Positions 1,993 through 23,207 of a stretch of DNA of 36,830 bases are shown here, piece after piece. The stretch is taken from assembly GCA_903908065.1 (NCBI GenBank), contig CAIVQO010000067.1, forward strand, positions 1-36,830. Direction: 5' to 3'. The position numbers and the translations under genes were made by a program. Numbering within the stretch: the first letter of the stretch is position 1; each line of letters begins with the position of its first letter. Under the pieces are notes generated by a model that worked only from the letters and a program-made list of their open reading frames with translations, ran no database searches and had not been told where the DNA came from. This stretch comes from an uncultured beta proteobacterium. GTDB lineage: Bacteria > Pseudomonadota > Gammaproteobacteria > Burkholderiales > Rhodocyclaceae.

Positions 1993-1994
1993 GC

Positions 1995-4234: not shown

Positions 4235-4242
4235 ACCCTATC

Positions 4243-8651: not shown

Positions 8652-8661
8652 GCATGAAACT

Positions 8662-8688
8662 GTAAGGAAGCCGCGCACTGCCCGACCA
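8662..8688 (+). promoter_or_regulatory. Bipartite promoter-like motif, copy C
   Basis: GTAAGG (8662-8667), 15 nt, CGACCA (8683-8688), then 6 nt to the ATG of the VWA gene. Identical hexamers, spacing and ATG distance occur at 10614 and 19544. GTAA/CGA hexamers at such spacing resemble some ECF sigma promoters. The motif sits in the 43-nt gap between the MoxR and VWA genes, so a transcript from here would be leaderless or nearly so. Confidence 0.55.
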
Positions 8689-8694
8689 AACACC

Positions 8695-9867
8695 ATGCTG
8701 ATCGACTTTTTCCTCCACCTCAAGGCGAAGAAGCTTCCCGTCTCCACGCGCGAGTTCCTCACGCTACTCGAGGCAATCCGGGAACGCGTCGCCGGCCACT
8801 CGATCGACGATTTCTATTTCCTCTCGCGCACCTGCCTGGTCAAGGACGAGGTGAACTACGACAAGTTCGACCAGGCCTTCGGCGAATACTTCAAGGGCAT
8901 CACCCACATTCCCGGGCTCGAAGCCGAGATCCCCGAGGAATGGCTCAAACTGATGATGAAGAAACATCTGACGCCCGAGGAAAAGGCCAAGCTGGAAAAG
9001 TTGGGGTGGGACAAGCTGATGGAGGAATTCAAGAAGCGTCTCGCCGAGCAGAAGGAACGCCATTCCGGCGGCAGCAAGTGGATCGGCACCGGCGGCTCCT
9101 CCCCCTTCGGCCACGGCGGCTTCCACCCCGAGGGCATCCGCGTCGGCGGCCCCTCGGCGGGCAACCGCACGGCGGTCAAAGTCTGGGAGAACCGCGAATA
9201 CCGCAACCTCGACGATACCGTTGAACTCGGCACGCGCAACATCAAGGTGGCGCTGCGCCGCCTGCGCCGCTTCGCCCGCGAAGGCGCCGAGGAGGAGCTG
9301 GACATGGACGGCACCATCGCCGGCACCGCGCGCAATGCCGGCTGGCTCGATATCCGGATGCGCCCCGAGCGCCACAACAAGGTCAAGGTGCTGCTCTTCC
9401 TCGACATCGGCGGCTCGATGGACGACCACATCAAGGTCTGCGAAGAACTCTTCTCGGCGGCGAAGAGCGAATTCAAGCACCTCGAGTACTTCTATTTCCA
9501 CAACTGCATCTACGACCACGTCTGGAAGGACAACCGGCGCCGCCATGCCGAGCGCTTTCCGCTGTGGGACGTGATGCACAAGTACGGCGAGGACTACAAG
9601 GTGGTGATCGTCGGCGACGCGACGATGAGCCCTTACGAGATCATGCAGCCGGGCGGCTCGGTCGAATACGCCAACGAGGAAGCCGGCGCGGTCTGGCTGC
9701 AGCGCATGCTCGACACCTGGCCGCGCGCCGTCTGGCTCAACCCCGAGCCGGAGCGGCTGTGGGATTACCGTCATTCGATCGACATCATCCGCACCATTTT
9801 CGGGACCCGGATGTACCCGCTGACGCTGGCCGGTCTCGAGCGCGCCATGCGCGAACTGAACAAGTGA
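8695..9867 (+). CDS. CoxE-like VWA domain protein
   Basis: A 390-aa cytoplasmic protein with a von Willebrand A domain in its C-terminal half, including the MIDAS motif DIGGSMDDH (about residues 239-247). Its partner is probably the preceding MoxR ATPase. The N-terminal 100 residues are helical. A Gly-rich linker (around residues 125-150, GGSKWIGTGGSSPFGHGGF) is typical of this VWA/CoxE-like group. MoxR-VWA pairs insert metals or remodel complexes (known for the family); the target here is unknown. Transcription may also start from motif copy C. Confidence 0.9.
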   Translation: MLIDFFLHLKAKKLPVSTREFLTLLEAIRERVAGHSIDDFYFLSRTCLVKDEVNYDKFDQAFGEYFKGITHIPGLEAEIPEEWLKLMMKKHLTPEEKAKLEKLGWDKLMEEFKKRLAEQKERHSGGSKWIGTGGSSPFGHGGFHPEGIRVGGPSAGNRTAVKVWENREYRNLDDTVELGTRNIKVALRRLRRFAREGAEEELDMDGTIAGTARNAGWLDIRMRPERHNKVKVLLFLDIGGSMDDHIKVCEELFSAAKSEFKHLEYFYFHNCIYDHVWKDNRRRHAERFPLWDVMHKYGEDYKVVIVGDATMSPYEIMQPGGSVEYANEEAGAVWLQRMLDTWPRAVWLNPEPERLWDYRHSIDIIRTIFGTRMYPLTLAGLERAMRELNK

Positions 9868-9877
9868 GGAGCACGCC

Positions 9878-10561
9878 ATGGAAAATGATCGCCGCCGCAC
9901 CCTGAAGGCTCTTGCCGCCGCCGGCCTGCTTGGCCCCGCCGGCATCTCCGGCCTGATCCGTGACGCCTTGGCCAAGGGCGAGGTGCCGCTCAAGACCGGC
10001 CTGCAGAAGCTGCGCGGCGAAGTCCTGGTCAATCATCGCGTCGCCAGCGAAGGCCAGCTGATCAAGCCCGGCGACACCATCGTCACCGGCCGCAACAGCG
10101 AAGCGATCTACGTCATCGGCCAGGATGCCTACATGCAGCGCGAACTCACCACCGTCAGCTTCGGCGCCGATGCGCTGCAAAACCTGATGCGCGTGGTATC
10201 GGGCAAGATCCTTTCGGTGTTCGGCAAGAATTCCGGCAGAAGCATCCAGACCTCCACCGCCACCATCGGCATTCGCGGCACCGGCTGCTACATCGAGGAC
10301 GAAGGCACGGGCGCCAAGGCGCGCACCTATTTCTGCCTTTGCTACGGTACTGCGGAACTCACGCCGAAGGCTGCGCCGCATGAGGTGGAGACCTACACCA
10401 CGCGGCAGCACGACCGGCCGATGTACGTGCACAACGACATGGCCATGGCGAAAATGATGGTACCGGCGGAAGTCATCAACCATACCGACGAGGAACTCAC
10501 CCTGCTCGAAGGGCTGGTCGGCCGGGTAACGCCGTTCTACGGCACGGGCAGAAAGTACTGA
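9878..10561 (+). CDS. Secreted FecR-domain protein with Tat-like leader
   Basis: A 227-aa protein. The N-terminus DRRRTLKALAAAGLLGPAG has a twin-arginine-like motif and a hydrophobic stretch, suggesting export. The body resembles the FecR domain: VASEGQLIKPGDTIVTGRNSE, then a beta-rich segment and SIQTSTATIGIRGTGC. It lacks the N-terminal cytoplasmic anti-sigma part of true FecR, so it is not obviously a sigma regulator. The ATG at 9878 follows GTGAGGAG with good spacing, 10 nt after the VWA stop, so it belongs with the MoxR-VWA genes. The binding partner is unknown. Confidence 0.75.
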   Translation: MENDRRRTLKALAAAGLLGPAGISGLIRDALAKGEVPLKTGLQKLRGEVLVNHRVASEGQLIKPGDTIVTGRNSEAIYVIGQDAYMQRELTTVSFGADALQNLMRVVSGKILSVFGKNSGRSIQTSTATIGIRGTGCYIEDEGTGAKARTYFCLCYGTAELTPKAAPHEVETYTTRQHDRPMYVHNDMAMAKMMVPAEVINHTDEELTLLEGLVGRVTPFYGTGRKY

Positions 10562-10594
10562 GCCTGAGCTTGGCCCCCATCGCCGTGCCGCCAG

Positions 10595-10614
10595 CGCCGA
10601 CTTTCGAGTCGGCG
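10595..10614 (+). terminator. Hairpin after the FecR-domain gene
   Basis: CGCCGAC-TTTCGA-GTCGGCG is a perfect 7-bp stem with a 6-nt loop, 33 nt after the stop at 10561. There is no T-run, so it would be a weak or factor-dependent terminator or an mRNA-stabilising end. Its 3' arm abuts the GTAAGG element of motif copy A. Confidence 0.45.
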
Positions 10615-10640
10615 TAAGGTTCCGGCCGCGCAAGCGACCA
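10614..10640 (+). promoter_or_regulatory. Bipartite promoter-like motif, copy A (egtD operon)
   Basis: GTAAGG (10614-10619), 15 nt, CGACCA (10635-10640), then AGTTGC and the ATG at 10647. Copies B (19544) and C (8662) have the same hexamers, the same N15 and the same 6-nt distance to an ATG. Copy B also shares flanking bases (GCGTAAGG, GCGACCAAG, TGCATG). It is likely the promoter of the five-gene operon ending in egtD. Confidence 0.65.
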
Positions 10641-10646
10641 AGTTGC

Positions 10647-11381
10647 ATGGCGCTGACTGAAGCCACCGACACAAAGGATCCGGCTCCGGGGCGGAGTTGC
10701 CCGCTGCGCTATCGCCATGGCGCGACCGCGCTGGCCTCGGCCCCGGAACACGCCGCCGACACGCTGTATGTCGTCGGCGGCTTCTACGGCAACCTGCCCG
10801 CGCTGGAGGCCCTGCGCCAACTCGCGGCACGAGAAGCCGCGCCCGCCACGCTCTGCTTCAACGGCGACTTCAACTGGTTCAATGTCGACGCTGCCGGTTT
10901 CGTTGCGATCAATCGCGCCGTCCTCGCCCACGACGCCTGCCTCGGCAATATGGAGGCGGAGTTGCTGTCGCCGGATGACGAAGCCGGATGCGGCTGCGCC
11001 TATCCCGAGAGCGTCGATGCCGGCACCGTCGACCGCTCGAACCGGATTCATGCCCGGCTGAAGCAGACCGCACAGGCGCATCCCGACTTGCGGCGGCAAC
11101 TGGGCACGCTGCCCATGGTGCGTCGCTACCGTGTCGGCGACGCGGCGATCGGCGTGGTCCATGGCGATGCCGAGTCGCCGGCGCCGACTCCTGCACTCTA
11201 TGGCTGCCGCCTCGGTTCGCTGCACATCGATGCCCTCCCCCTGGACTACGACTGCGTCGCCTGGGAAGCGGCCTTCCTCGCCAACTGGCCGCCGGGATCG
11301 CCGGCACACGTGTCATACTACCGGCGCATCGTCGACGGCCCGGACCATGCGCTGGCCCGGGCCGCAGCACCCACAAGATGA
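10647..11381 (+). CDS. Degenerate calcineurin-like metallophosphoesterase
   Basis: A 244-aa protein whose layout follows the metallophosphoesterase fold: YVVGGFYGNLPALEAL, CFNGDFNWFN, CLGNMEAELL, GVVHGDAES. Several metal ligands are replaced. The usual D-x-H of SDIHGN is G-x-Y, and the His of GNHD/E is Met; the final GHTH motif is not seen. It may therefore be inactive, bind another metal or act as a scaffold (inference). The ATG at 10647 lies only 6 nt after the -10-like CGACCA, so the mRNA may be leaderless; no Shine-Dalgarno sequence is visible. It is the first of five genes joined by 4-nt overlaps. Confidence 0.7.
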   Translation: MALTEATDTKDPAPGRSCPLRYRHGATALASAPEHAADTLYVVGGFYGNLPALEALRQLAAREAAPATLCFNGDFNWFNVDAAGFVAINRAVLAHDACLGNMEAELLSPDDEAGCGCAYPESVDAGTVDRSNRIHARLKQTAQAHPDLRRQLGTLPMVRRYRVGDAAIGVVHGDAESPAPTPALYGCRLGSLHIDALPLDYDCVAWEAAFLANWPPGSPAHVSYYRRIVDGPDHALARAAAPTR

Positions 11382-12106
11382 ACCAAGCGAATCCGACGCC
11401 TGCCCGCCCCCGCCCCCTTGCCGCCACATTGCGCTGGTGGGCAGGGTTTTCGCTCGTGGTGCTGGTCCTTGCCTGGCTCTCGCCGGGCAGCCAGCACCTC
11501 AATCCCGATTTCGCCGCCTGGCGGGAATGGCAAAACGGGTTTCGGCACCTGGTCGACAACCACTGGCTGCTCGCGGTGGCACTCACCTTCGTCCTACACA
11601 CGCTGCTTGCCGCGCTGGGTCTGCCCGGCGCTTCTCTGCTGATGCTGGCCGCCGGGTCGGGATTTGGCCCCGCCGTGGGCACCTTGCTCTGCCTCGCCGG
11701 CTGCACCAGCGGCGCCACGCTCGCCATGCTCGGCTCGCGCCGCTGGCTGCAGCCCTGGGTGCGGCGTCGCCACGGCGCACGACTCGCCGATATCGAAGCC
11801 CGCATCGACGCCGACGGCGCCTCCTGGCTGTTCAGCCTGCGCCTGCTGCCGGTAGTGCCTTTCACCGTTGTAAACCTGGCCGCCGGACTGACCACGATGC
11901 GTGCCTGGACCTTCACCTGGGTCAGTTTCGTCGGTATGGCGGCGGGTACCTTCGTCTATGTCAATGCCGGCAGCGAACTGGGCCACGTGCGCCAGCTTGC
12001 CGACCTGCATTCACCCTCGCTGCTGGTTTCTCTGGCAGCCCTGGCCCTGTTGCCCTGGCTCCTGAAACCTCTGTTGCGCCGGCGGCGCCCGGCGACGCAA
12101 CGATGA
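11378..12106 (+). CDS. VTT-domain (TVP38/TMEM64, DedA-like) membrane protein
   Basis: A 242-aa inner-membrane protein. It has an N-terminal helix (about residues 18-36) and then the VTT core with LGLPGASLLMLAAGSGFGPAVGTLLC, SLRLLPVVPFTVVNLAAGLT and a TFVYVNAGSELG segment, which are family signatures including the re-entrant helices. Family members are proposed lipid or small-molecule transporters. The N-terminal part of the fusion protein at 19613 is a paralogue with the same landmarks (RLIPQVPFWAVNLLMG, TAVYVNAGTQL). It overlaps both neighbours by 4 nt. Confidence 0.88.
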   Translation: MNQANPTPARPRPLAATLRWWAGFSLVVLVLAWLSPGSQHLNPDFAAWREWQNGFRHLVDNHWLLAVALTFVLHTLLAALGLPGASLLMLAAGSGFGPAVGTLLCLAGCTSGATLAMLGSRRWLQPWVRRRHGARLADIEARIDADGASWLFSLRLLPVVPFTVVNLAAGLTTMRAWTFTWVSFVGMAAGTFVYVNAGSELGHVRQLADLHSPSLLVSLAALALLPWLLKPLLRRRRPATQR

Positions 12107-13446
12107 GCGGCCAGCGTAGCCTCGTCCTCTTCAACTACGACTGGGACCGCATCGGCTTTGGCCGCTGGGCTGCCGAGTTTCCGCACGACCACGCCGGCTT
12201 CGACCTGTTCAGCTTTCCCAGCAATGCGCGCCTGCCCGGCTTCGACCTGACACGCTTCGTTGATCGACTCGCGCGCAAGGCCCCGCACACCGGGTGGACC
12301 GCGGTGACCTCCAACCACGAGCAGTTCGGTGCGCTGGCGGCCGCCATGCTGGCCGAGCGCATGGGCTGGCCGGGCACGCCGGTGGATGCGGTGCTCGCCT
12401 GCCAGCACAAGCTGCATGCGCGACGGGTGTTGCAGAAGGTCGCACCCGAGGCCAACACCGGCTTCGGCCTAATGCCTGCGCGCTACGGCGAACCCATCCC
12501 CGAGGGCATCGACTACCCGAGTTTCGTCAAGCCGGTGAAGGCCGCCTTTTCGGTGCTGGCGCGCACCGTACGCAGTCAAGCTGAATTACAGGCCATGACG
12601 CGCTTCGGCGCCTGGGAATTGTGGGTGATCCGCCACCTGGTCGAGCCCTTCGAACGCATTGCTCAGCAGCGCCTGCCCGAGGCCGGCAGCGCCCATCGCC
12701 TGCTGCTGGAACAGCCGGCGCAAGGTCTCCAGTACAACCTCGACGGCTATGTCATCAATAGCGAATTGCGCCCGCTGGGCGTGGTGCATTCCGAGATGTA
12801 CCCCGGCACGCAATGCTTCCGCCGCTTCGTTTATCCCTGCGGCCTGCCCGAGGCTGCGCGACAACTGGCAATAGACGTGGCGCGGCGCTTCCTTGCCGCG
12901 ATCGGCTTCGACCACGGCCTGTTCAACATGGAATTCTTTTTCGATGCGGCGAGCGGCAAACTCACCGTGATCGAATTCAATCCGCGCATGGCCTCCCAGT
13001 TTTCCGACCTCTACCTGCGCGTCGATGGCATCGACCTGCATCGTCTGGCGCTGGAACTTGCCCACGGGCGCGACCCGGCGCTGGTGCCGCGCGCCACCCC
13101 TAGCGCCGGCATCGCCGCCAGCTTCGTCTATCGCAGCTTCGACCCGGCGGCCCGTCCGCCGATGCCGTCGGCGGCGCGCATCGCCGACCTGGCGCGGCAG
13201 TATCCCGATGCCATGCTGTTCCGCTTTCCCAAGACCGCCGGCCAGATCGCACGCGATTTCAAATGGCTGGCAAGCTATCGCTACGGCATCCTGCACCTGG
13301 GGGGCGCCGACGCCGCCGACCTTGCCGCGCGCTGCGCGGCTGCCAGCGCCCTGCTCGGCTGGCCCTCGCCCTGCGCGACCCTGGAATCCGCCGCCGACGA
13401 CAAGGCGGCCCTGACCCATGAACTTTCCCTGGAGACTCCGACATGA
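12103..13446 (+). CDS. ATP-grasp domain protein of unknown substrate
   Basis: A 447-aa soluble protein. The ATP-grasp character is seen in PSFVKPVKAAFSVLA (nucleotide-binding Lys region), LLLEQPAQGLQYNLDGYV, and the metal-binding end GLFNMEFFFD...LTVIEFNPRMASQFSDLY, where Glu and Asn are the expected Mg ligands. Enzymes of this fold join a carboxylate to an amine or thiol through an acyl-phosphate. The last 120 residues form a separate C-terminal part. It is placed between a VTT protein and a YHS lipoprotein, two genes before egtD with 4-nt overlaps. A role in modifying an ergothioneine/selenoneine-type product or its precursor is possible but is pure inference. Confidence 0.8.
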   Translation: MSGQRSLVLFNYDWDRIGFGRWAAEFPHDHAGFDLFSFPSNARLPGFDLTRFVDRLARKAPHTGWTAVTSNHEQFGALAAAMLAERMGWPGTPVDAVLACQHKLHARRVLQKVAPEANTGFGLMPARYGEPIPEGIDYPSFVKPVKAAFSVLARTVRSQAELQAMTRFGAWELWVIRHLVEPFERIAQQRLPEAGSAHRLLLEQPAQGLQYNLDGYVINSELRPLGVVHSEMYPGTQCFRRFVYPCGLPEAARQLAIDVARRFLAAIGFDHGLFNMEFFFDAASGKLTVIEFNPRMASQFSDLYLRVDGIDLHRLALELAHGRDPALVPRATPSAGIAASFVYRSFDPAARPPMPSAARIADLARQYPDAMLFRFPKTAGQIARDFKWLASYRYGILHLGGADAADLAARCAAASALLGWPSPCATLESAADDKAALTHELSLETPT

Positions 13447-14036
13447 AACGTTTCTTACTGATTGCCGGCGCCGCCTTGCTGCTATCCGGCTGCGGTGCCA
13501 TGACCGCGCAAAATCCGTCCGGCAGCTACACGCCGGTGAACGCCGTGGCCGATGGCGCCGACGCGCGCGTGATGCTCAAGGGTGCCGACGTGGTGGCCTA
13601 TTTCAGCGAAGGAAAATTCCGCCAGGGCACGGCACAGTACAGCAGCCGTTACGAAGACATCAGCTTCCGCTTCGCCAGCGCGGAAAACAAGGCGCTGTTC
13701 GACAAGCAGCCGACCAAGTACCTGCCGGAATTCGGCGGCTACTGCGCCAACGGCATCGCCTATGGCATACCCTGGGGCGGCGACGCCGACATGTGGAAGA
13801 TGATCAACGGCAAGCTCTACATCTTCGGCGGCCAGGCCTCGAAAGACGCCTTCGAACTCGACGAGAAGAAGAACCTGGCGTTGGCCGAGTCCTACTGGAA
13901 GGACGAAGTCGCCGGTCACAACAGTTTTTTCCAGCGCTGGAAGCGCCTGATCTTCCGCGTTCCGCACTACCAGAGCGGCGACGACCTGGCCAAGGCCATC
14001 GCTGCCGCCAAGGCCAAGGGCGGCACGGCGAAGTGA
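13443..14036 (+). CDS. YHS-domain lipoprotein
   Basis: A 197-aa protein with a lipoprotein signal (KRFLLIAGAALLLSGC, acylated Cys17). The body contains a YHS-like segment: GADVVAYFSEGKFRQGTAQYSSRYEDISFRFAS (split here: GADVVAYFSEG, then YEDISFRFAS), PTKYLPEFGGYCANGIAYG. YHS domains are associated with metal handling and occur in secreted proteins of similar design. It is probably anchored in the periplasm. It starts 4 nt inside the ATP-grasp gene and its TGA overlaps the GTG start of egtD. Confidence 0.85.
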   Translation: MKRFLLIAGAALLLSGCGAMTAQNPSGSYTPVNAVADGADARVMLKGADVVAYFSEGKFRQGTAQYSSRYEDISFRFASAENKALFDKQPTKYLPEFGGYCANGIAYGIPWGGDADMWKMINGKLYIFGGQASKDAFELDEKKNLALAESYWKDEVAGHNSFFQRWKRLIFRVPHYQSGDDLAKAIAAAKAKGGTAK

Positions 14037-14983
14037 ACTCCCCACGCCTGATCCAGATCGCGCACGACGACCCGCAGGCGGTGCGCGCCGAACTGCTCGC
14101 CGGCCTGCAGGCACCGGTTGCGCACATCGCACCCAAGTATCTTTACGACGCGCTCGGCTCGCGCCTGTTCGCCGCCATCACGGAACTGCCAGAGTACTAC
14201 CCGACGCGCACCGAAGCCGCCATCTTCAGCCGCGAAATGAGAGACATGGCAGCTGCGCTGGGGCCAGTCGACTGCCTGGTCGACCTCGGTGCCGGCAACT
14301 GCGAAAAAGCCGCGCGCCTGTTCGAGACCTTCCGCGTCAAGCGCTACGTGGCCGTCGACATCTCGGTGAATTTCCTGCGCGATTCGCTGGCTTGTTTGCA
14401 GCGCGAACATCCGGAGATGGACGTGCTCGGCATTGGGCTGGATTTTTCGCAAAGCCTGGCGCTGCCGGCCGAGGTCGGCAGCGGGCCGCGCACTCTGTTC
14501 TATCCCGGCTCCAGCATCGGCAACTTCACACCCGACGCGGCGCTGGCCTTCCTGCGCCAGGCGCATGCCGCCAGCGCCGGTGGCGCGCTGCTGATCGGCG
14601 TGGACCTGGTCAAGCCGACGGCCGTGCTGGAACCGGCCTATGACGACCCGCTGGGCGTCACCGCCGCCTTCAACCGCAACATGCTGCTGCACCTCAACCG
14701 CCTGACCGGCACCGACTTCGACATCGCCGACTGGCGCCATGTGGCCTTCTTCAACAGCGTCGATTCACGCATCGAGATGCATCTCGAAGCGCTGCGCGGC
14801 GCGACGGTTCGCTGGTCCGGCGGCGAACGGAACTTTGCCGCCGGCGAGCGCATGCATACCGAGAACTCCTGCAAGTGGCAGCTCGACAACTTTGCCGCGC
14901 TGTTGCAACAGGCCGGCTTTTCACGCCTGCGCCACTGGACTGACGAGCGCGGCTGGTTCGCCGTCTTCCTCGGCTTTGCCTGA
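14033..14983 (+). CDS. egtD: L-histidine N-alpha-methyltransferase EgtD
   Basis: Trimethylates histidine with SAM to hercynine, the shared precursor of ergothioneine and selenoneine. The 316-aa length is near the family's 321. Signatures are PKYLYDALGSRLFAAITELPEYYPTR (in two parts, PKYLYDALGS and LPEYYPTR), LVDLGAGNCEKA (SAM loop), PGSSIGNF with Asn164, DDPLGVTAAFNRN, and MHTENSCKW with Glu277 and the Ser two residues on. These correspond to histidine-binding residues of mycobacterial EgtD (family knowledge). The start is taken as GTG at 14033 (GTGA overlap with the lipoprotein gene), because the aligned protein begins with NSPRLIQIAHDD and no later ATG keeps the N-terminus. Convergent with senA. 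Confidence 0.95.
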   Translation: MNSPRLIQIAHDDPQAVRAELLAGLQAPVAHIAPKYLYDALGSRLFAAITELPEYYPTRTEAAIFSREMRDMAAALGPVDCLVDLGAGNCEKAARLFETFRVKRYVAVDISVNFLRDSLACLQREHPEMDVLGIGLDFSQSLALPAEVGSGPRTLFYPGSSIGNFTPDAALAFLRQAHAASAGGALLIGVDLVKPTAVLEPAYDDPLGVTAAFNRNMLLHLNRLTGTDFDIADWRHVAFFNSVDSRIEMHLEALRGATVRWSGGERNFAAGERMHTENSCKWQLDNFAALLQQAGFSRLRHWTDERGWFAVFLGFA

Positions 14984-15003
14984 ACATGGATCGCCGCATC
15001 TCC

Positions 15004-15035
15004 AGCGCCGACTTTCGACCAGACCAGCCGGCGCT
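15004..15035. terminator. Hairpin between convergent egtD and senA
   Basis: AGCGCCG (15004-15010) pairs with CGGCGCT (15029-15035) across an 18-nt loop, in the 50-nt gap where egtD and senA converge; it reaches the senA stop codon. There is no T-run on either side. It shares a 17-nt identity (15002-15018) with the hairpin region at 10591-10607. Confidence 0.35.
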
Positions 15036-16194
15036 AGATCGCGCAGCTGCGAAATCCCGCGTGGATGTCGTTACGCTCGGGCGTGAAGTAGTTGCGGTAG
15101 CGCGGATGCGCCATGCGCGGCGCGGTGGCGCGACTGGCGCCGCGCAGCACGTAGCGCTCGCCAAACCAGGGCGCCGAGTAATCACGGTAGGGATGGGCGA
15201 CAAATCCGGGATAGGGCAGGAAGCGGCTGGCCGTCCATTCCCAGACCTGGCCCCAGCCGAATTCCGGCCGGGTGCAGGCAGCAAACTCCCATTCGGCTTC
15301 CGTCGGCAGGCGCCGTCCGGCCCAGCGGCACCAGGCCTCTGCCTCATGCCAGCTCAGGTGGGTGGCCGGCGCATCGAGGTCGAGCGCCCGCCAGTTACCG
15401 AATTCCCGGCATTGCCAGCCACCGTCCTGGCGCCGCAGGTAGCGCGGCGGCGCGGCGCCGCTGGCTTCGAGGCAGGGCAGGTAACGCGCCCAGCTGATCA
15501 CCTCGCTGTCGATCTCGAAGGCGTCGAGGTCCACCGTGTGGGCGCCGAGTTCGTTGTCGAAGGCAAATCCCGGGCCGGCACTACCCAGGCTCCAGGACTG
15601 GGCGGCGACGCTCAGCGGCTTGGGGTCGGCACAGGGGCGGGCGGCACGCAGCAGCGTTTCCGGCAGCGCGATGTCGAGCGCCTGTGCCATGTAGATCGCC
15701 GCCTCGGCGTGCATGTCCTCGTGAAACAGCGCGAGGCGATAGAAATACAGGCCGTCGTCGCTTTCCTCGGCAGTGGCCAGCAGCGCCAAGGTTTCGGCCA
15801 GGCTGGCGGCGAGGTAGTCGCGCGTCATCGCCAGCGGCGGCAAGGGCAAGGCCCAGCGCGTGACGTGGGCGACGAGGCTGGAGTTGTAAAGCGCATCGGC
15901 ATTCGCCATGCGCCCGTCGGGGCGGGGGTGGTCCGGGTCGCAGGCGACGCCGCGCTCGCGCTGTCGGCTGCGCGCAAGCCACCAGTCCTGGAACCAGGCC
16001 ACGTGGCCGGCTTCCCAAATCGGCGGATTGAGCTGCACCGAGTAGGGCACCACCAGGCTTTCGCCCAAGGCGGCCACATAGGCGTCCAGCAGCGCCAGCG
16101 TCGTGGCGCGGCTGTCGCTCAAGAACTTTGCCAGCGTCGCGCGGCCGCCGCTGCGGGCCTCGTTCGCTGCATCGATGTTGTGGATGGCTGCCAT
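15034..16194 (-). CDS. senA: Selenoneine synthase SenA (EgtB-like)
   Basis: Non-haem iron enzyme that couples hercynine with the selenosugar made by SenB, giving a selenoxide precursor of selenoneine (known for SenA). The 386-aa product has a DinB-like N-terminal half with likely iron ligands His64 (GHVAWFQDWW) and His158/His162 (FHEDMHAEA), spaced like H51/H134/H138 of EgtB. A C-terminal FGE-sulfatase domain follows (SWHEAEAWCRWAGRRLPTEAEWEFA, GQVWEWTASRF, VLRGAS, NYFTPERNDIHAGFR). The ATG at 16194 is preferred to 16257, because the domain begins with NEARSGGRATLAKFL and the longer form would run further into senB. EgtB is the alternative, but the senB-senC neighbours favour SenA. Confidence 0.88.
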   Translation of the reverse strand: MAAIHNIDAANEARSGGRATLAKFLSDSRATTLALLDAYVAALGESLVVPYSVQLNPPIWEAGHVAWFQDWWLARSRQRERGVACDPDHPRPDGRMANADALYNSSLVAHVTRWALPLPPLAMTRDYLAASLAETLALLATAEESDDGLYFYRLALFHEDMHAEAAIYMAQALDIALPETLLRAARPCADPKPLSVAAQSWSLGSAGPGFAFDNELGAHTVDLDAFEIDSEVISWARYLPCLEASGAAPPRYLRRQDGGWQCREFGNWRALDLDAPATHLSWHEAEAWCRWAGRRLPTEAEWEFAACTRPEFGWGQVWEWTASRFLPYPGFVAHPYRDYSAPWFGERYVLRGASRATAPRMAHPRYRNYFTPERNDIHAGFRSCAI

Positions 16195-17239
16195 GGCTGA
16201 AGCGCGCAGTATGCCGCAACTGGTGATCGTCACGCCGGCGCTGCGCGATGCCAACAACGGTAACTGGCAGACCGCGCGGCGCTGGCAGCACCTGCTGCAG
16301 GACCGCTACTACGTGCGCCTGGTCAAGCAATGGCCGACCTCCCTGGCCTGCGCCGACTCGGCAATGATCGCCTTGCACGCACGCCGCTCGGCGGAGTCGA
16401 TCGCGGCCTGGGCGCGTGCCTACCCGGATCGCGGCCTCGCCGTGGTGCTGACCGGCACCGACCTTTACCGTGACATCGCCGTCGATGCCGCCGCCCAGGC
16501 ATCGCTGGAGCACGCCCGGCACATCGTCGTATTGCAGGAACTCGGCCCACAGGCTCTGCCTGAACGCCTGCGCTCGAAGTGCCGCGTCATCTACCAATCG
16601 ACCACGGCGCGCAAGGCACTGGACAAGCCTGTCCGCACCCTGCGTGCGGTGATGGTCGGCCACCTGCGCGACGAGAAATCCCCCGACACCCTGTTCGCCG
16701 CCGCGCGCCTGCTGGCTGACCAGCCACACATCCGCATCGACCATATCGGCGAGGCGCTCGACCCGGCGCTGGGCCTGGCCGCGCAGGCCACCATGGCCGC
16801 CGCGCCAAACTACCGCTGGCTCGGCGGCCTGCCGCACGAGGAAGTACGGCGCCGCATCCAGCGCGCCCACGTGCTGGTGCATTGCAGCCGCATGGAAGGC
16901 GGTGCCCACGTCATCATGGAAGCCGTGGCCAGCGGCACGCCGGTGATCGCGTCACGCATCGACGGCAATGTAGGCATGCTCGGCGCGGACTATGGCGGTT
17001 ACTTTCCGCCTGGCGATGCCGCGGCGCTGGCCGCACTATTGAGGCGCTGCGTGGAAAGTTCGCGCCGGGATGCGGAAAGTTACCGAAGGGATGCAGAGCG
17101 CTGGCGCCGGCAACACGGCGACGACCTACTGGCGACGCTGGCCCGGCAATGCGCCGCGCGTGCGCCCCTGTTCACCGCCGACGCCGAGCGTGCCGCCCTG
17201 CGGCGCCTCGCCGGCGACCTGCTGGCCGGCCGCAAATGA
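16193..17239 (+). CDS. senB: Selenosugar synthase SenB (glycosyltransferase)
   Basis: Makes a selenosugar from a UDP-sugar and selenophosphate, forming the C-Se bond (known for SenB). The 348-aa product is a GT-B type enzyme: N-terminal IVTPALRDANNGNWQTARRW, LTGTDLYRDI, then the nucleotide-sugar domain with VMVGHLRDEKSPDTLF, LGGLPHEEV, VHCSRMEGGAHVIMEA and GTPVIASRIDGNVGML, all as in the TIGR04348-type family. The ATG at 16193 lies in the same CCATGG as the senA start; a second ATG at 16211 (MPQLVIVTP) is equally good by alignment. The stop overlaps senC by 4 nt. Confidence 0.9.
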   Translation: MAEARSMPQLVIVTPALRDANNGNWQTARRWQHLLQDRYYVRLVKQWPTSLACADSAMIALHARRSAESIAAWARAYPDRGLAVVLTGTDLYRDIAVDAAAQASLEHARHIVVLQELGPQALPERLRSKCRVIYQSTTARKALDKPVRTLRAVMVGHLRDEKSPDTLFAAARLLADQPHIRIDHIGEALDPALGLAAQATMAAAPNYRWLGGLPHEEVRRRIQRAHVLVHCSRMEGGAHVIMEAVASGTPVIASRIDGNVGMLGADYGGYFPPGDAAALAALLRRCVESSRRDAESYRRDAERWRRQHGDDLLATLARQCAARAPLFTADAERAALRRLAGDLLAGRK

Positions 17240-19509
17240 AGGCAAACGCGCCCGTCCTGCGTGACATCGTCCTGGTTGGCGGCGGCCACAGCCATGTCGT
17301 GGTGCTGCACAGCTTCGCCATGCGCCCACTGCCGGGGGTGCGCCTGACGCTGATCTGCACCGACACCGACACGCCCTATTCCGGCATGCTGCCGGGCTAC
17401 ATCGCCGGCCATTACGGCTTTGACGACGTGCATATCGACCTGCGCCGGCTCGCCGAATTTGCCGGCGCGCGCTACCTGCGCGACGAGGTGATCGGCATCG
17501 ACCGCGCCGAACGCAAGGTACTCTGCCGCGAGCGCCCGCCGGTCAGCTACGACGCGCTGTCGATCAACATCGGCTCGACACCGCAGCTCGCCGGCGTGCC
17601 GGGCGCCACCGAACACGCCATCCCGGTGAAGCCGATCCGCCGCTTCAACCAGCGCTGGCTGGCACTGTTCGAACGCATGCGCGTCCACGCCGGGCCGGCC
17701 ACCATCGCCGTGGTCGGCGCCGGCGCTGCCGGCGTTGAATTGACGCTGGCCATGCAGTACCGCCTGCGCAATGAACTTTCCGCACTGGGGCGCGACCCCG
17801 ACCAGTTGCACTTCCACCTGTTCTCGGCCGAGGCGGAAATCCTGCCAACGCACAACGCCGCCGTGCGCCGCGCCTTCGAGTCGGTGCTGACCGCGCGCGG
17901 CGTCAGCGTGCATCGCGGCGCCGAGGTCAGCCAGGTCGGCGCCGGGCGCCTGCAAGTACGTGGCGGCACCACGCTGGAGGCCGACGAAATCGTCTGGGTC
18001 ACCCAGGCCGGCGGTGCCGCCTGGCTCAAGGACACCGGCCTCGCGCTGGACGAATCCGGCTTCATTCGCATCGGCGAGACCCTGCAAAGCGAAACCGACC
18101 CGCTGATCTTCGCCGCCGGCGACTGCGCCGCGATGAACGGCTACCGGCTGGAAAAGGCCGGCGTCTTCGCCGTGCGCATGGGCATGCCGCTAGCCGAAAA
18201 CCTGCGCCGCAGCGTGACCCGCGAAGAGCTGACGCACTACCGCCCGCAGTCGCGCTGGCTGGCATTGATCAGCACCGGCGATCGCCACGCGGTAGCCTCG
18301 CGCGGCTGGCTGTTTGCCTGCGGCGACTGGATCTGGCGCTGGAAGGACTGGATCGACCGCCGCTTCATGCGCAAGTTCTGCGAGCTGGCGCCGATGGCGG
18401 ATGCCAGGCCGGCCGCCAACGACGAGGTCGCCCTGGCACCGGTGGAACAGGAACAGGCCATCTCGGCCATCGCCATGCGCTGCGGCGGCTGCGGCGCCAA
18501 GGTCGGCGCCAGCGTGCTGTCGCGCGCACTGGCCGAACTGCAGCCGGTTGCCCGCGACGACGTGCTGATCGGACTGCACGCGCCGGACGATGCGGCGGTG
18601 CTGCGCGTGCCGCCGGGCAAGGCGCTGGTGCATAGCGTCGATTTCTTCCGCGCCTTCATCGACGACCCCTGGGTCTTCGGCCGCATCGCCGCCAACCATG
18701 CGCTGGGCGACATCTTCGCCATGGGCGCCGAGCCGCAGTCGGCCACCGCCATCGCCACCGTGCCGCCGGGGCTGGAAGCCAAGGTCGAGGACACGCTGCG
18801 CCACATGATGGGCGGCGCCATCTCGGTGCTCAACGAAGCCGGCTGTGCGCTGGTCGGCGGCCACACTGGCGAAGGCGGCGAACTCGCCTTGGGCTTCGCC
18901 GTCAACGGCCTGATCGACGAGCAGCTTGCCAGCGTGCTGACCAAGGGCGGCATGCGCCCCGGCGAGGTGCTGATCCTGACCAAGCCGATCGGCACCGGCA
19001 CGCTGTTCGCCGCCCACGCACGCCTGAAGGCGCGCGGCCGGTGGATCGACGCGGCGCTGGAATCGATGCAGATTTCCAACCGCGCCGCCATGCCCTGCCT
19101 GATCGCTCATGGTGCCAGCGCCTGCACCGACCTTACCGGCTTCGGCCTGCTCGGCCACCTGGTCGAGATGACGCGGCCATCGGGCGTCGATGCCGAGATC
19201 GAACTCAATGCCCTGCCGCTACTCGACGGCGCGACAGAGTGTGTCGCCGCCGGCATCCTCAGCTCGCTGCAACCGGCCAATGTGCGTCTGCGGCGGGCCC
19301 TGCGCAACCAGGAAGAGGCGCTGTCACACCCCGCCTACCCGCTGATCTTCGACCCGCAAACTGCCGGCGGCCTGCTCGCCAGCGTCCCGGCCGAGCACGC
19401 CGAGGCCTGCCTCGCAGACTTGCGCGAACTGGGGTACCCACGCGCCGCGCGCATCGGCCGGGTTCTGGCGCAGGGTGAAGCGATCGAACCGATCAGTTTG
19501 CGATGTTGA
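17236..19509 (+). CDS. senC: Oxidoreductase-selenide,water dikinase fusion (SenC/SelD)
   Basis: A 757-aa two-domain protein. Residues 1 to about 390 form an FAD/NAD pyridine-nucleotide oxidoreductase of the type found fused to SelD: VGGGHSHVVVLHSF, TPYSGMLPGYIAGHY, VVGAGAAGVELTLAMQYRL, IFAAGDCAAM. Residues about 410-757 form selenophosphate synthetase: CGGCGAKVG with Cys416 and Cys419 (Cys419 aligns with the essential Cys17 of E. coli SelD by eye; not Sec here), HAPDDAAVLR, HSVDFFRAFIDDPWVFG, GGHTGEGGELALGFAVNG, TDLTGFGLLGH, DPQTAGGLLASV. It supplies selenophosphate to SenB, 4 nt overlapping. The job of the oxidoreductase half is not known. Confidence 0.93.
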   Translation: MKANAPVLRDIVLVGGGHSHVVVLHSFAMRPLPGVRLTLICTDTDTPYSGMLPGYIAGHYGFDDVHIDLRRLAEFAGARYLRDEVIGIDRAERKVLCRERPPVSYDALSINIGSTPQLAGVPGATEHAIPVKPIRRFNQRWLALFERMRVHAGPATIAVVGAGAAGVELTLAMQYRLRNELSALGRDPDQLHFHLFSAEAEILPTHNAAVRRAFESVLTARGVSVHRGAEVSQVGAGRLQVRGGTTLEADEIVWVTQAGGAAWLKDTGLALDESGFIRIGETLQSETDPLIFAAGDCAAMNGYRLEKAGVFAVRMGMPLAENLRRSVTREELTHYRPQSRWLALISTGDRHAVASRGWLFACGDWIWRWKDWIDRRFMRKFCELAPMADARPAANDEVALAPVEQEQAISAIAMRCGGCGAKVGASVLSRALAELQPVARDDVLIGLHAPDDAAVLRVPPGKALVHSVDFFRAFIDDPWVFGRIAANHALGDIFAMGAEPQSATAIATVPPGLEAKVEDTLRHMMGGAISVLNEAGCALVGGHTGEGGELALGFAVNGLIDEQLASVLTKGGMRPGEVLILTKPIGTGTLFAAHARLKARGRWIDAALESMQISNRAAMPCLIAHGASACTDLTGFGLLGHLVEMTRPSGVDAEIELNALPLLDGATECVAAGILSSLQPANVRLRRALRNQEEALSHPAYPLIFDPQTAGGLLASVPAEHAEACLADLRELGYPRAARIGRVLAQGEAIEPISLRC

Positions 19510-19543
19510 GTGTTGTTCAAGTGCACCGCTTACCGTGTGTAGC

Positions 19544-19570
19544 GTAAGGATTCGCCGCCAGTGGCGACCA
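19544..19570 (+). promoter_or_regulatory. Bipartite promoter-like motif, copy B (VTT-reductase operon)
   Basis: GTAAGG (19544-19549), 15 nt, CGACCA (19565-19570), followed by AGCTGC and an ATG at 19577. Same architecture as copies A (10614) and C (8662). It lies in the 103-nt gap between senC and the VTT-reductase gene. Confidence 0.65.
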
Positions 19571-19576
19571 AGCTGC

Positions 19577-19600
19577 ATGTCGTGCCTGCGGCATGCATGA
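19577..19600 (+). other. Possible 7-codon leader peptide (uORF)
   Basis: The ATG placed 6 nt after copy B opens MSCLRHA followed by TGA, ending 12 nt before the ATG of the VTT-reductase gene. In copies A and C the equivalent ATG is the start of the real gene. It may be a leaderless leader peptide or only a remnant of an ancestral start. Confidence 0.25.
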
Positions 19601-19612
19601 TCGGGAGTGAGC

Positions 19613-21763
19613 ATGTCATCTCGCAAGCTGCTGTTCGTCGTCGCCATCACCGTTGTGGTCGGCGCCTTCTTCGCCTTCGACCTGGGACGATGGTTCAGCC
19701 TCGACGCGCTCAAGGCGCAGCAGGCGAACATCGAAGCCTACCGGGCTGCCAACCCCTGGCTCGCGGCCGTGGTCTATTTCGCGATCTATGTCGCCGTCAC
19801 CGCGCTGTCGCTGCCTGGAGCGGCGATCATGACGCTCGCCGGTGGCGCGGTGTTCGGCCTGCTGTGGGGCACGGTGCTGGTGAGCTTCGCCTCCAGCCTC
19901 GGCGCCACGCTGGCCTTCCTTGCCTCCCGCTTCGTGCTGCGCGACTGGGTCAAGCAGCGCTTCGGCCCGCGCCTGGCGGCGATCGACCGCGGCGTCGAGA
20001 AGGACGGCGGCTTTTATTTGCTTACGCTTCGCCTAATACCACAAGTTCCCTTTTGGGCCGTCAACCTTCTGATGGGGGTTACGCCGATGCGCACTTGGAC
20101 CTTCTATTGGGTTAGTCAGATGGGCATGCTGGCCGGCACGGCAGTCTATGTGAATGCAGGAACTCAACTGGCGAGCGTAGGCAGCATTAAGGACATCTTC
20201 TCACTGGAATTGATTGGTTCGTTCCTCTTGCTGAGTATCTTCCCCCTGATCGCCAAGAAGTTGGTCGACGGCGTCAAGGCAAAGCAGGTCTATGCGCGCT
20301 GGACCAAGCCGGCGAAGTTCGACCGTAACCTGATCGTCATCGGCGCCGGCAGCGCCGGCCTGGTCACCGCCTACATCGCCGCCGCCGTGAAGGCAAAAGT
20401 GACGCTGATCGAAAAGCACCGGATGGGCGGCGACTGCCTGAATACCGGCTGCGTACCGTCGAAGGCGCTGATCCGCTCGGCGAAGTTCTTATCCCACATT
20501 GCGCGCGCCGAGGAGTTCGGGTTTCGCCGTGGCGCCAGCGCCGACTTTAACTTCGCCGACGTCATGGAGCGGGTGCAGCGAGTGGTGCAGACCGTCGAGC
20601 CGCACGATTCCGTCGAGCGCTACACCGGGCTGGGTGTCGAAGTCATCGAAGGCACGGCGACGCTGGTCTCGCCCTGGGCAGTCGAAGTCAGGTGCCACAA
20701 CGGCGCGACGGAGAAACTCTCGGCGCGCAGCATCGTCATCGCCGCCGGGGCGCGGCCCTTCGTGCCGCCCATCCCGGGCATCGAGGAGGTCGGCTACCTC
20801 ACCTCCGATACGGTGTGGGACCTGCGCGAACTGCCCAGGCGGCTGGTGGTGCTGGGCGGCGGGCCGGTCGGCTGCGAGCTGACGCAGGCCTTCGCCCGCT
20901 TCGGCGCCAAGGTCAGCCAGGTGGAGATGCTGCCGCGCCTGATGATTCGTGAAGACCCGGAAGTCTCCGAACTGGTGGCCGCACGTTTCCGCCGGGAAGG
21001 CATCGACGTGCTGCTGAACCACAAGGCGATGCGCTTCGTCGTCGAGAATGGCGAAAAGGCGCTGATCGCGGACCACGAGGGCAGGGAAGTGCGCATCCCC
21101 TTCGATGCCGTGCTAGTCGCCGTCGGCCGCGTCGCCAACCTCAAGGGCTACGGCCTGGAGGAGCTCGGCGTCGCCACTTCGCGCACCATCGAGACCAACG
21201 AGTTCCTGCAGACCAGCTACCCCAACATCTACGCCTGCGGCGACGTCGCCGGGCCCTACCAGTTCACCCACACCGCCGCGCACCAGGCCTGGTATGCCGC
21301 CGTCAATGCGCTGTTCGACCCGTTCAAGAAGTTCAAGGCGGACTACTCGGTGATCCCCTGGGCCACCTTCGTCGAGCCCGAGGTGGCGCGCGTCGGCCTC
21401 AATGAAGCCGAGGCGAAGGAAAGGGGCATCGCCTGCGAGGTGGCGCGCTACGACATCGACGACCTCGACCGCGCGATTGCCGACAGCGAGGCGCATGGTT
21501 TCATCAAGGTGCTGACCGTGCCGGGCAGCGACCGCATCCTCGGCGTGACCATCGTCGGCGAGCACGCCGGCGACCTGATCGCCGAATACGTGCTGGCGAT
21601 GAAGCACAGCATCGGCCTCAACAAGATCCTCGGCACTATCCATATCTATCCGACGCTGGCCGAGGCCAACAAGTACGTCGCCGGGGTATGGAAGAAGGCG
21701 CATGCGCCGGAACGCCTGCTGCGCTGGGTGGCGCGCTTTCATGCCTGGCGGCGGGGAGGATGA
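19613..21763 (+). CDS. VTT membrane domain fused to a pyridine nucleotide-disulfide oxidoreductase
   Basis: A 716-aa fusion. Residues 1 to about 225 are a VTT/TVP38 membrane domain (VALTALSLPGAAIMTLAGGAVFG core, RLIPQVPFWAVNLLMG). Residues about 238-716 are a class I flavoprotein disulfide reductase: LIVIGAGSAGLVTAYIAA, redox-active GGDCLNTGCVPSK, LGGGPVGCELTQAFARFG, YACGDVAGPYQFTH, and C-terminal GTIHIYPTLAEANK with the His-Glu pair. It lacks the N-terminal HMA domain and C-terminal Cys pair of mercuric reductase, so the substrate is open. The ATG at 19613 has GGGAG 5 nt upstream; GTG at 19607 is the alternative. About 20020-20280 is AT-richer than the rest. It is the first gene of a three-gene overlapping operon. 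Confidence 0.9.
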   Translation: MSSRKLLFVVAITVVVGAFFAFDLGRWFSLDALKAQQANIEAYRAANPWLAAVVYFAIYVAVTALSLPGAAIMTLAGGAVFGLLWGTVLVSFASSLGATLAFLASRFVLRDWVKQRFGPRLAAIDRGVEKDGGFYLLTLRLIPQVPFWAVNLLMGVTPMRTWTFYWVSQMGMLAGTAVYVNAGTQLASVGSIKDIFSLELIGSFLLLSIFPLIAKKLVDGVKAKQVYARWTKPAKFDRNLIVIGAGSAGLVTAYIAAAVKAKVTLIEKHRMGGDCLNTGCVPSKALIRSAKFLSHIARAEEFGFRRGASADFNFADVMERVQRVVQTVEPHDSVERYTGLGVEVIEGTATLVSPWAVEVRCHNGATEKLSARSIVIAAGARPFVPPIPGIEEVGYLTSDTVWDLRELPRRLVVLGGGPVGCELTQAFARFGAKVSQVEMLPRLMIREDPEVSELVAARFRREGIDVLLNHKAMRFVVENGEKALIADHEGREVRIPFDAVLVAVGRVANLKGYGLEELGVATSRTIETNEFLQTSYPNIYACGDVAGPYQFTHTAAHQAWYAAVNALFDPFKKFKADYSVIPWATFVEPEVARVGLNEAEAKERGIACEVARYDIDDLDRAIADSEAHGFIKVLTVPGSDRILGVTIVGEHAGDLIAEYVLAMKHSIGLNKILGTIHIYPTLAEANKYVAGVWKKAHAPERLLRWVARFHAWRRGG

Positions 21764-22590
21764 GCGTGAGACACATCGAACTGGTGCGCCTGCTGTTCGC
21801 CGTTGCCCTCCTCTCCTGCGCCACACTGGTTCGCGCCCAGGCCTTCGACCACTCGCATGCGGCATGGAACGCGCTGCTGGCCAGGCACGTCAAGACCTTC
21901 GCCAACGGCAATGCCAGCGCCGTCGATTACGCTGCGCTCAAGTCCGAGCATGCAGCGCTGAAAACCTACCTTGGCACGCTCACGGCGGTCAGCGAATCCG
22001 ACTACGGCAAATGGAGCAAGGCTCAGCGCCTGGCCTTCCTGATCAACGCCTATAACGCCTTCACCATCGAGCTAATCCTCACGAAATATCCCGAGCTCGA
22101 ATCGATCAAGGACCTCGGCTCGGTGTTCTCCTCGCCCTGGAAGAGGAAGTTCTTCACGCTGCTCGGCCAGGAGCGGCACCTCGACGAGATCGAGCACGGA
22201 TTGATCCGTACGCCCGGTGCCTTCGACGACCCGCGCATTCACGCCGGCGTGGTCTGCGCCTCGATCGGCTGTCCAATGCTCAGGCCCGAGGCCTTCACCG
22301 CGGAGAAGCTCGACGCCCAGCTTGACGACGGCATGAACCGATTCCTCTCCGACCGCACGCGCAACCGCTTCGACGCCAGCAGCGGAAAGCTCCAGGTGTC
22401 CAGGATCTTCGACTGGTACGGCAAGGACTTCGAGAAGGGACATAAGGGCTATGACTCGCTGAAAGCCGCCTTCGCCCGCCATGCGGCGCAACTCGCTGCC
22501 ACGCCCGAGGCACAGGCGAGGCTGCGCAAGGGCGACTACACGCTCGACTTCCTCGACTACGACTGGAAGCTCAACGACAGCCGGCGATGA
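21760..22590 (+). CDS. DUF547 secreted protein
   Basis: A 276-aa protein with a signal peptide (RLLFAVALLSCATLVRA, cleavage likely near residue 24) and a DUF547 domain: KAQRLAFLINAYNAFTIELIL, SPWKRKFFTLLG, LDEIEHGLIR, DPRIHAGVVCASIGCPML, SRIFDWYGKDF. The function of DUF547 is not established. The conserved His and Cys of HAGVVCASIGCP suggest a catalytic or metal site, perhaps papain-like (inference). The start overlaps the reductase stop by 4 nt and the stop overlaps the glycosyltransferase by 4 nt. Confidence 0.9.
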   Translation: MSVRHIELVRLLFAVALLSCATLVRAQAFDHSHAAWNALLARHVKTFANGNASAVDYAALKSEHAALKTYLGTLTAVSESDYGKWSKAQRLAFLINAYNAFTIELILTKYPELESIKDLGSVFSSPWKRKFFTLLGQERHLDEIEHGLIRTPGAFDDPRIHAGVVCASIGCPMLRPEAFTAEKLDAQLDDGMNRFLSDRTRNRFDASSGKLQVSRIFDWYGKDFEKGHKGYDSLKAAFARHAAQLAATPEAQARLRKGDYTLDFLDYDWKLNDSRR

Positions 22591-23207
22591 AACCCGGCGT
22601 TGCCATCCTTGCCCGCGCCCCGGTGGCCGGGGAAACCAAGACGCGGCTGATCCCGGTGCTTGGAGCCGCGGGCGCCGCCAAGCTGGCGGCCTGGATGCTG
22701 CGACGGGCGGTAGCGACCGCGCAGGCAGCGGAGCTGGGGCCGGTTCGGCTCTTCTGTGCCGGCGATCCGGACCATCCGGAATTCATCGCCTGCGGCGGCA
22801 AGGGCCTGGACCGATTCCGACAGCCCGGCGGCGATCTCGGCGCACGCATGGCACAGGCCGCCGAGCAGGCGGCGACGCCGGACGGAGTGATCGTGATCGG
22901 AACCGATTGCCCGGCGCTGACACCAGACCACTTGCACCAGGTCGCTCAAGCGTTACGGCAAAACGATGTCGTCGTCCTGCCCGCCGAGGATGGCGGCTAT
23001 GTGCTGATGGCCATGCGCCAGCCATCGGCCGCGCCATTCTCGGGCATTCGCTGGGGCGAGTCGACGGTCATGGCGCATACGCGGCGGCGATTGGCGGAAC
23101 TCGGCTGTCGCTGGACCGAGCCGGCCACGCTGTGGGACGTAGACCGGGCGGAGGACCTCGAACGCCTGTCGATCGCCTGGCCGGAAGTGCGGGCTGTCAT
23201 TTCCTGA
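22587..23207 (+). CDS. CofC-like glycosyltransferase (DUF2064/TIGR04282 type)
   Basis: A 206-aa GT-A-fold nucleotidyl/glycosyltransferase: VAILARAPVAGETKTRLIP at the N-terminus, GGDLGARMAQA, VIVIGTDCPALTPDHL and VVVLPAEDGGYVLMAM with the metal-site Asp residues, and a C-terminal WDVDRAEDLERL. The family is associated with radical-SAM (seleno)protein loci and is named for arsenosugar biosynthesis. No ArsS or ArsM homologue is in this window, so the product here is unknown. Last gene of the operon. Confidence 0.88.
   Translation: MKPGVAILARAPVAGETKTRLIPVLGAAGAAKLAAWMLRRAVATAQAAELGPVRLFCAGDPDHPEFIACGGKGLDRFRQPGGDLGARMAQAAEQAATPDGVIVIGTDCPALTPDHLHQVAQALRQNDVVVLPAEDGGYVLMAMRQPSAAPFSGIRWGESTVMAHTRRRLAELGCRWTEPATLWDVDRAEDLERLSIAWPEVRAVIS

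Follow-up and report, generated by a model that had tools for sequence, protein, structure and literature searches.

Three promoter-like sites and the genes behind them

The window analysed here is a stretch of 36,830 nucleotides, contig CAIVQO010000067.1 of the assembly GCA_903908065.1 from an uncultured beta proteobacterium (Burkholderiales; Rhodocyclaceae), whose genome of 3.84 Mb in 103 contigs is 99.6% complete. It carries three copies of a bipartite element, GTAAGG-N15-CGACCAA, which we consider as candidate promoters of a probably stress-responsive extracytoplasmic function (ECF) sigma factor encoded elsewhere in the genome. The sites and the genes behind them are the following.

8662..8689 (+): site 1, promoter-like GTAAGG-N15-CGACCAA, exact match, motif start 33 nt before ATG 8695
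8695..9867 (+): VWA_CoxE-type protein behind site 1 (PF05762 above cut-off)
9878..10561 (+): second gene behind site 1, twin-arginine-like N-terminus as judged by eye
10614..10641 (+): site 2, promoter-like GTAAGG-N15-CGACCAA, exact match, motif start 33 nt before ATG 10647
10647..11381 (+): first gene of the site 2 operon, without family match
11378..12106 (+): VTT-domain membrane protein, site 2 operon (PF09335)
12103..13446 (+): ATP-grasp enzyme, site 2 operon (PF13535 barely over the cut-off, 28.7 vs 27 bits)
13443..14036 (+): YHS-domain lipoprotein-like protein, site 2 operon (NF041384 above cut-off; PF04945, PF08139)
14033..14983 (+): EgtD, L-histidine N(alpha)-methyltransferase of hercynine synthesis, site 2 operon (TIGR03438, 373 bits, cut-off 291)
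19544..19571 (+): site 3, promoter-like GTAAGG-N15-CGACCAA, motif start 69 nt before the likely gene start 19613
19613..21763 (+): VTT domain fused to a FAD/pyridine-nucleotide disulfide oxidoreductase, site 3 operon (PF09335, PF07992, PF02852)
21688..22590 (+): DUF547 protein, site 3 operon (PF04784), coordinates counted from the first ATG of its frame; translation may begin further in
22587..23207 (+): TIGR04282 glycosyltransferase-like protein, annotated as arsenosugar biosynthesis, site 3 operon (192 bits, cut-off 134)

The three exact copies of GTAAGG-N15-CGACCA reported in the initial annotation were recovered at 8662-8688, 10614-10640 and 19544-19570, all on the plus strand, and the genome-wide scan that it had suggested revealed these to be the only exact copies in the whole genome. 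It had also placed an ATG six nucleotides after CGACCA in front of each operon. Such an ATG is present at all three sites, but at site 3 it is not the start of the gene: the frame of ATG 19577 reaches a stop after seven codons, and the more likely start is 19613, which stands behind GGGAGTG. Regarding the gene labels, no Pfam or NCBIfam match was obtained for the protein of 9878..10561, previously called FecR-like, and the metallophosphoesterase label of 10647-11381 was not confirmed by either collection. The GTG start of EgtD was assigned by eye, the family scan having been run from 14039. EgtD also belongs to a selenoneine gene set in 14033-19509, together with SenA (NF041186, minus strand), SenB (TIGR04348) and a pyridine-nucleotide oxidoreductase-SelD fusion; within this set only EgtD lies behind a motif. 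Sigma-70 promoters were sought in 8500-19800 and none was found, and RNA structures at the three sites folded no better than shuffled sequences (z 0.18-0.29).

The motif, the sigma locus and their distribution

When the pattern was widened to GTAAS-N15..17-CGACYAA exactly five matches were found in the genome, all of them with one spacing (GTAAG with 21 nt from the -35 start to the -10 start) and all 33-79 nt before gene starts; four read CGACCAA and one CGACTAA. Besides the three window sites these are a motif at C65:26537, 53 nt before arsS (TIGR04167, 457 bits), and GTAAGG-N15-CGACTAA at C65:31346, which by sequence only stands 79 nt before msrB-msrA and a TIGR04283 glycosyltransferase gene, in the gap between msrB and a divergent sigma gene of contig C65:

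C65:30696-31271 (-): ECF sigma gene (TIGR02943, 265 bits, cut-off 162)

A small zinc-type anti-sigma gene (NF052368, 73 bits, cut-off 50) follows directly, its start lying 1 nt after the stop codon of the sigma gene, and the encoded sequence contains MLSC... (Cys4) and HVMICSAC (His-x3-Cys-x2-Cys). It had been proposed to look for matches before genes, among them an ECF sigma/anti-sigma pair with the same site; all five stand before genes and one of them is in the sigma-msrB gap. The window itself contains no sigma gene, as was originally stated, and none of the 8 Sigma70_r2 matches of the genome falls on its contig.

The presence of such a sigma factor goes together with the motif in related genomes. 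Sixty-one genomes of the family were sampled, in which the sigma factor was found in 29 (E <= 1e-30) and GTAAG-N16-CGACYAA in 20. With our own genome left out, the motif occurred in 15 of the 28 sigma-bearing genomes and in 4 of the 32 others (Fisher p 0.0007), with 27 matches in total vs 4, or 25 vs 4 without two that lie inside sigma genes (G007, G050), whereas the motif read backwards as a control gave 22 vs 37. The order survey comprised 200 genomes, 86 of them with a TIGR02943 match over the cut-off, and used GTAAG-N16-CGWCYAA. Again without our own genome, the motif was present in 63/85 sigma-bearing and 34/114 other genomes (p 5e-10), with 1.66 and 0.36 matches per genome respectively. 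Known intragenic matches were removed here for the fetched sigma genes, all but 6 of those over the cut-off at order level, and the order-wide matches beyond those listed are counts per genome.

The genes behind the motif in relatives were identified by a family scan of ten downstream proteins or their beginnings. MsrB (SelR), MsrA (PMSR) and a radical SAM protein with DUF3641 (ArsS-like) were found, additionally two Oxidored_molyb proteins, which we read as MsrP-like, two DUF2282 proteins and one enzyme of the MbnB/TglH/ChrH family; two small proteins of the ten had no family match. By eye, no such gene follows the motif in the four sigma-less genomes (L048, L049, L051, L054); the overlapping open frames have 278 to 509 codons at three of the four matches and do not exceed 74 codons at the fourth. 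Long open frames also enclose several matches in sigma-bearing genomes, for example L058 and L070, and these could have arisen by chance. Motif-like sites with one more spacer base were seen at L060 (G034), L046 (G044), L106 (G019) and L112 (G044), which suggests that a spacing of 17 nt after GTAAG is also in use.

The ECF-type promoter proposed in the initial annotation is therefore well supported by the TIGR02943 sigma/anti-sigma pair with the same site in the msrB gap, by the joint occurrence of motif and sigma factor in both surveys, and by a near-copy inside the sigma gene (see below). As a whole, the best explanation, to which we assign a probability of roughly 0.85, is that GTAAGG-N15-CGACYAA is the promoter of the C65 sigma factor of the TIGR02943 type, which would be held by its anti-sigma, serve about five promoters and have an intragenic feedback copy.

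Several observations weigh against this explanation. Frequency by itself proves little, because the backwards control has 4 exact matches in the genome vs 3 for GTAAGG-N15-CGACCA, and with one mismatch allowed the genome holds 56 control matches vs 30 of the motif, that is, no raw enrichment; for GTAAS-N15..17-CGACYAA the control likewise gave 9 matches vs 5. The claim that three copies are not expected by chance agrees with a first-order Markov model (0.0013 exact copies expected in the window, 0.14 in the genome), but given these controls the counts alone are not decisive, and the window-level probabilities are after the fact, since the motif was first spotted by eye. The surveys in other genomes are free of this problem, and the unusual feature is the location of the matches. 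Furthermore, the exact motif is absent from 13/29 sigma-bearing genomes of the family, and in the order survey the sigma-bearing genomes are richer in the control too (2.8 vs 1.8 per genome), the motif excess being larger than the control excess. The same-genus genome G001 has kept the sigma factor (75% identity) and msrB, and contains no exact GTAAG-N16-CGACYAA anywhere; its sigma-msrB gap (L074) is shorter and without the site, and the intragenic copy, which reads CGTCCAA, is all that remains. A relaxed search with GTMAGN{15,17}CGWCNAA in 14 sigma-bearing genomes gave 235 matches vs 282 of the control, not above the control; the matches listed do not extend to G001 and say nothing on the form that it uses.

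Finally, the initial annotation had suggested that conservation before orthologous operons be checked, and this was found for site 3 only. The search was made with a matrix from 16 sites (score >= 15) within 400 nt before the orthologue, the starts being set by alignment for sites 1 and 3. The VTT-FAD-oxidoreductase gene was matched in 20/61 family genomes, 3 of them partially (G049, G016, G035), and a counterpart of site 3 precedes it in 6 of the 16 relatives with a visible gene start (G041, G008, G019, G018, G044 and G037, the last without the sigma factor at the threshold used). In G033 the motif is found roughly 1 kb upstream of the VTT-reductase and is followed by an arsS-like gene. Site 2 had no counterpart directly before the first-gene orthologue in 6 relatives (0/6), and site 1 none before the VWA orthologue in 29 (0/29); the VWA gene is present in 38/61 family genomes, and of the 37 relatives among them a locus was available for 29. 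The best matrix score before the orthologues of both was 10.2. The site 2 first-gene orthologue is a neighbour of the VTT-reductase in G005, G014 and G028, and lies near the sigma gene in G034 and G060. A motif at the divergent msrB position was detected with a regular expression in 6 of 23 named Sulfuritalea-like loci (L307, L308, L316, L325, L326, L328; sigma identity 72-91%).

Accordingly the three sites differ in their standing, and of the one regulon of three operons suggested originally, the part of site 3 is supported by the relatives while a regulon shared by all three is not established. The case for the membership of site 3 is good. For site 2, which has no counterpart directly upstream in the 6 relatives examined, the case is built on the sequence itself and on the connection with the other parts, and its membership is plausible. 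Site 1 is the weakest of the three and possibly a member. We regard it as tentative, at somewhat less than even odds, that sites 2 and 3 are true promoters whereas site 1 arose by chance or was gained in this genome only and has no function: all 29 relatives examined are without a counterpart, the same-genus sequence in the site 1 gap is unrelated, and one core match by chance is not rare (in our own genome the backwards control gave 4 matches for GTAAGG-N15-CGACCA and 0 for GTAAG-N16-CGACYAA). Against this stand the exactness of all 13 letters of GTAAGG and CGACCAA, the same ATG spacing as at site 2, and the position on the coding strand in a short intergenic gap.

Elsewhere in the window, rnf electron-transport operon-like genes occupy 1408-6646 (RnfB confirmed by family, the others by eye), and a group II intron reverse transcriptase/maturase (TIGR04416) lies at 35075-36442 (-), near the contig end.

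A motif copy within the sigma gene

The C65 sigma gene contains a near-copy of the motif at C65:30778-30805 (-), in the codons of region 4.2 and before the anti-sigma gene, with a -10 that reads CGTCCAA. To place this copy in a wider frame 109 sigma genes were considered, chosen by protein or family match and not by the motif (29 from the family and 80 of 86 further order-level matches over the cut-off). GTMAG-N16-CGWCYAA was found, always at the same position within the recognition-helix codons of region 4.2, in 59 of the 109, where 2.1 genes would be expected from synonymous codons resampled according to usage in three GC3 classes; elsewhere in the aligned codons of these genes it did not occur on the same strand. 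The version with GTAAG only is present in 44/109, all among the 52 genes whose residues permit GTAAG. In a second, named set the copy was seen in 26/80 sigma genes, including 21/23 of the Sulfuritalea-like ones.

It has to be asked whether the copy merely reflects conservation of the recognition helix, without promoter function. The helix, C-K/Q-x-x-x-I-S/T-x-S/T-N, is indeed fairly conserved, the sigma genes are related and not statistically independent, and tests of codon vs residue on independent pairs had no power, the pairs being too few. A codon profile of the genes with the copy is circular, these genes having been selected by the site, and carries no weight here. The codons, however, do not simply follow the residues. 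In the 59 genes with the copy residue 8 is A in 23, S in 15, P in 12 and T in 9, and at least 25 residue changes fall at this position on a tree built without the helix, with CG kept. Among all 109 genes NCG codons encode residue 8 in 31/36 cases of Ala, 17/21 of Ser, 16/17 of Pro and 11/22 of Thr, compared with 686/2087, 225/934, 295/570 and 187/821 respectively elsewhere in sigma genes. The first helix residue, Cys, is written TGT in 51/56 genes before Lys, 15/18 before Gln, 5/6 before Asn and 1/1 before His, in 1/4 before Ala and in 0/18 before Glu, Arg, Asp, Leu or Thr, and in 89/329 cases elsewhere in sigma genes. Since residue 8 varies with CG kept and the use of TGT depends on the following residue, amino-acid conservation alone is insufficient to explain the codon choice in the helix, and we consider conservation without promoter function doubtful.

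An anti-sigma-like open reading frame is next in 58/59 genes with the copy and in 47/50 without it, and the distance from the end of the intragenic -10 to the anti-sigma start has a median of 84 nt (range 42-214, with a heuristic start choice). The simplest reading of the copy is a sigma-dependent promoter that serves only the anti-sigma gene. Autoregulation from upstream of the sigma gene was rejected: within 600 nt before it a same-strand motif was found in only 1/59 genes with the copy and 2/50 without, and none in our own genome.

We hold it somewhat more probable than the reverse that in the TIGR02943 group of the Burkholderiales the DNA of the recognition helix holds the sigma factor's own promoter, its two elements correctly spaced, for the anti-sigma only, which would couple the evolution of specificity to negative feedback, and that the EgtD and VTT-FAD-oxidoreductase operons beside the selenoneine genes were recruited to a methionine-oxidation regulon. 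If this is true, the helix and its target are written in the same bases, so that the evolution of promoter specificity is tied to a built-in negative feedback, and a coding sequence would double as the apparent promoter for the inhibitor of its own protein.

The proposed regulon and known systems

Recognition of the motif by the C65 sigma factor is what we infer, and the 8 Sigma70_r2 matches of the genome, along with G001, which has a sigma factor of the C65 type and no exact CGACYAA sites, would fit a reading of the motif by another ECF or sigma-70 factor. This is quite improbable in our estimation, since the motif lies at the C65 sigma factor's own locus, and the presence of a C65-type sigma, which is the type covered by the surveys, predicts the motif in both of them. 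Least probable of all is that the motif is a transcription-factor operator or a short repeat spread by leader duplication: sites 2 and 3 do have further letters in common next to the core (GCGTAAGG; GCGACCAAGYTGCATG), but the spacers differ, neither half is the inverted form of the other, the distance between the halves is that of an ECF promoter known from the literature (PMC2893595), and many unrelated genes carry the motif in relatives.

The motif is thus probably the promoter of a methionine-oxidation regulon of the sigmaE-MseR type, here with the VTT-FAD-oxidoreductase and EgtD operons. The C65 sigma factor would be kept silent by the product of the adjoining gene, the small zinc-type anti-sigma, and would be freed once the latter is inactivated, probably by an oxidant to which methionine is sensitive as well; this signal is suggested by analogy with the Neisseria and Haemophilus systems. 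The freed sigma factor would guide RNA polymerase to about five promoters. These would be the ones before msrB-msrA-TIGR04283 and arsS, site 3 with the VTT-FAD-oxidoreductase operon and site 2 with the EgtD operon, and perhaps site 1 with the VWA gene. Transcription would begin 6-7 nt after CGACYAA. The sixth letter after this element is A in 4/5 of our own sites and, among the 30 sites listed from relatives (two of them intragenic), a purine in 25, and at sites 1 and 2 it is the A of the ATG. With such a start the messages of sites 1 and 2 would have no leader or almost none; ATG 8695 of the VWA gene and ATG 10647 possibly begin their own messages. The intragenic copy would supply a further, sigma-dependent transcript that covers only the anti-sigma gene, and thereby a negative feedback.

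This explanation would name a likely regulator for genes of unclear role, namely those of the VTT-FAD oxidoreductase, the ATP-grasp enzyme, the YHS protein and the DUF547 protein, and arsS, and it would link hercynine synthesis with a methionine-repair sigma factor. In a literature search for selenoneine together with a sigma factor, the one match concerned clostridial purine use, to judge from its title.

The known systems were compared by their published descriptions, the TIGR02943 score being that of the C65 sigma factor. The closest resemblance is to sigmaE-MseR of Neisseria meningitidis, where an ECF sigma factor is likewise followed directly by a small zinc-type anti-sigma with Cys4 and His-x3-Cys-x2-Cys, and where msrA/msrB are controlled, for which our evidence is the promoter sequence only (PMC2893595, PMC3240639). 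The Neisseria promoter consists of a -35 GTMAGBWTT, a spacer of 12-13 nt, a -10 CGTCTAAH and a start at an A six nt downstream (PMC2893595). The -35 GTAAGG and the distance between the two elements are alike (21 nt here, 21-22 nt for the GTMAGB consensus), whereas the -10 reads CGTCTAA there and CGACYAA here (PMC2893595), a difference that belongs with the counter-evidence given above. The targets also differ, since here they would include arsS and the VTT-FAD-oxidoreductase and EgtD operons, and the Neisseria operon is autoregulated with positive feedback (PMC2893595, PMC3240639), while no same-strand site lies within 600 nt before the C65 sigma gene.

RpoE2-HrsE of Haemophilus influenzae is also a sigma/anti-sigma pair near msr genes (msrAB); it is involved in responding to hypochlorite and has a very limited control of its own gene (PMC7907618). 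Its gene order is different, and no promoter consensus for comparison was found in the portion of text available (PMC7907618).

For the intragenic copy, the location in the recognition helix and the spread in TIGR02943 had no precedent that we recognised among the literature matches listed. The principle of an intragenic anti-sigma promoter is already known from Corynebacterium glutamicum, the only precedent recognised among those matches, where PrshA, inside sigH of the SigH-RshA system, transcribes only the anti-sigma gene, as established by Northern blot and reporter (PMC3489674). Both are sigma-dependent promoters, here a putative one, within the sigma gene and upstream of the anti-sigma; PrshA, however, is of the GGAAT/GTT type (PMC3489674), whereas the copy described here is known by its conservation in many genera and overlaps the codons of the recognition helix.

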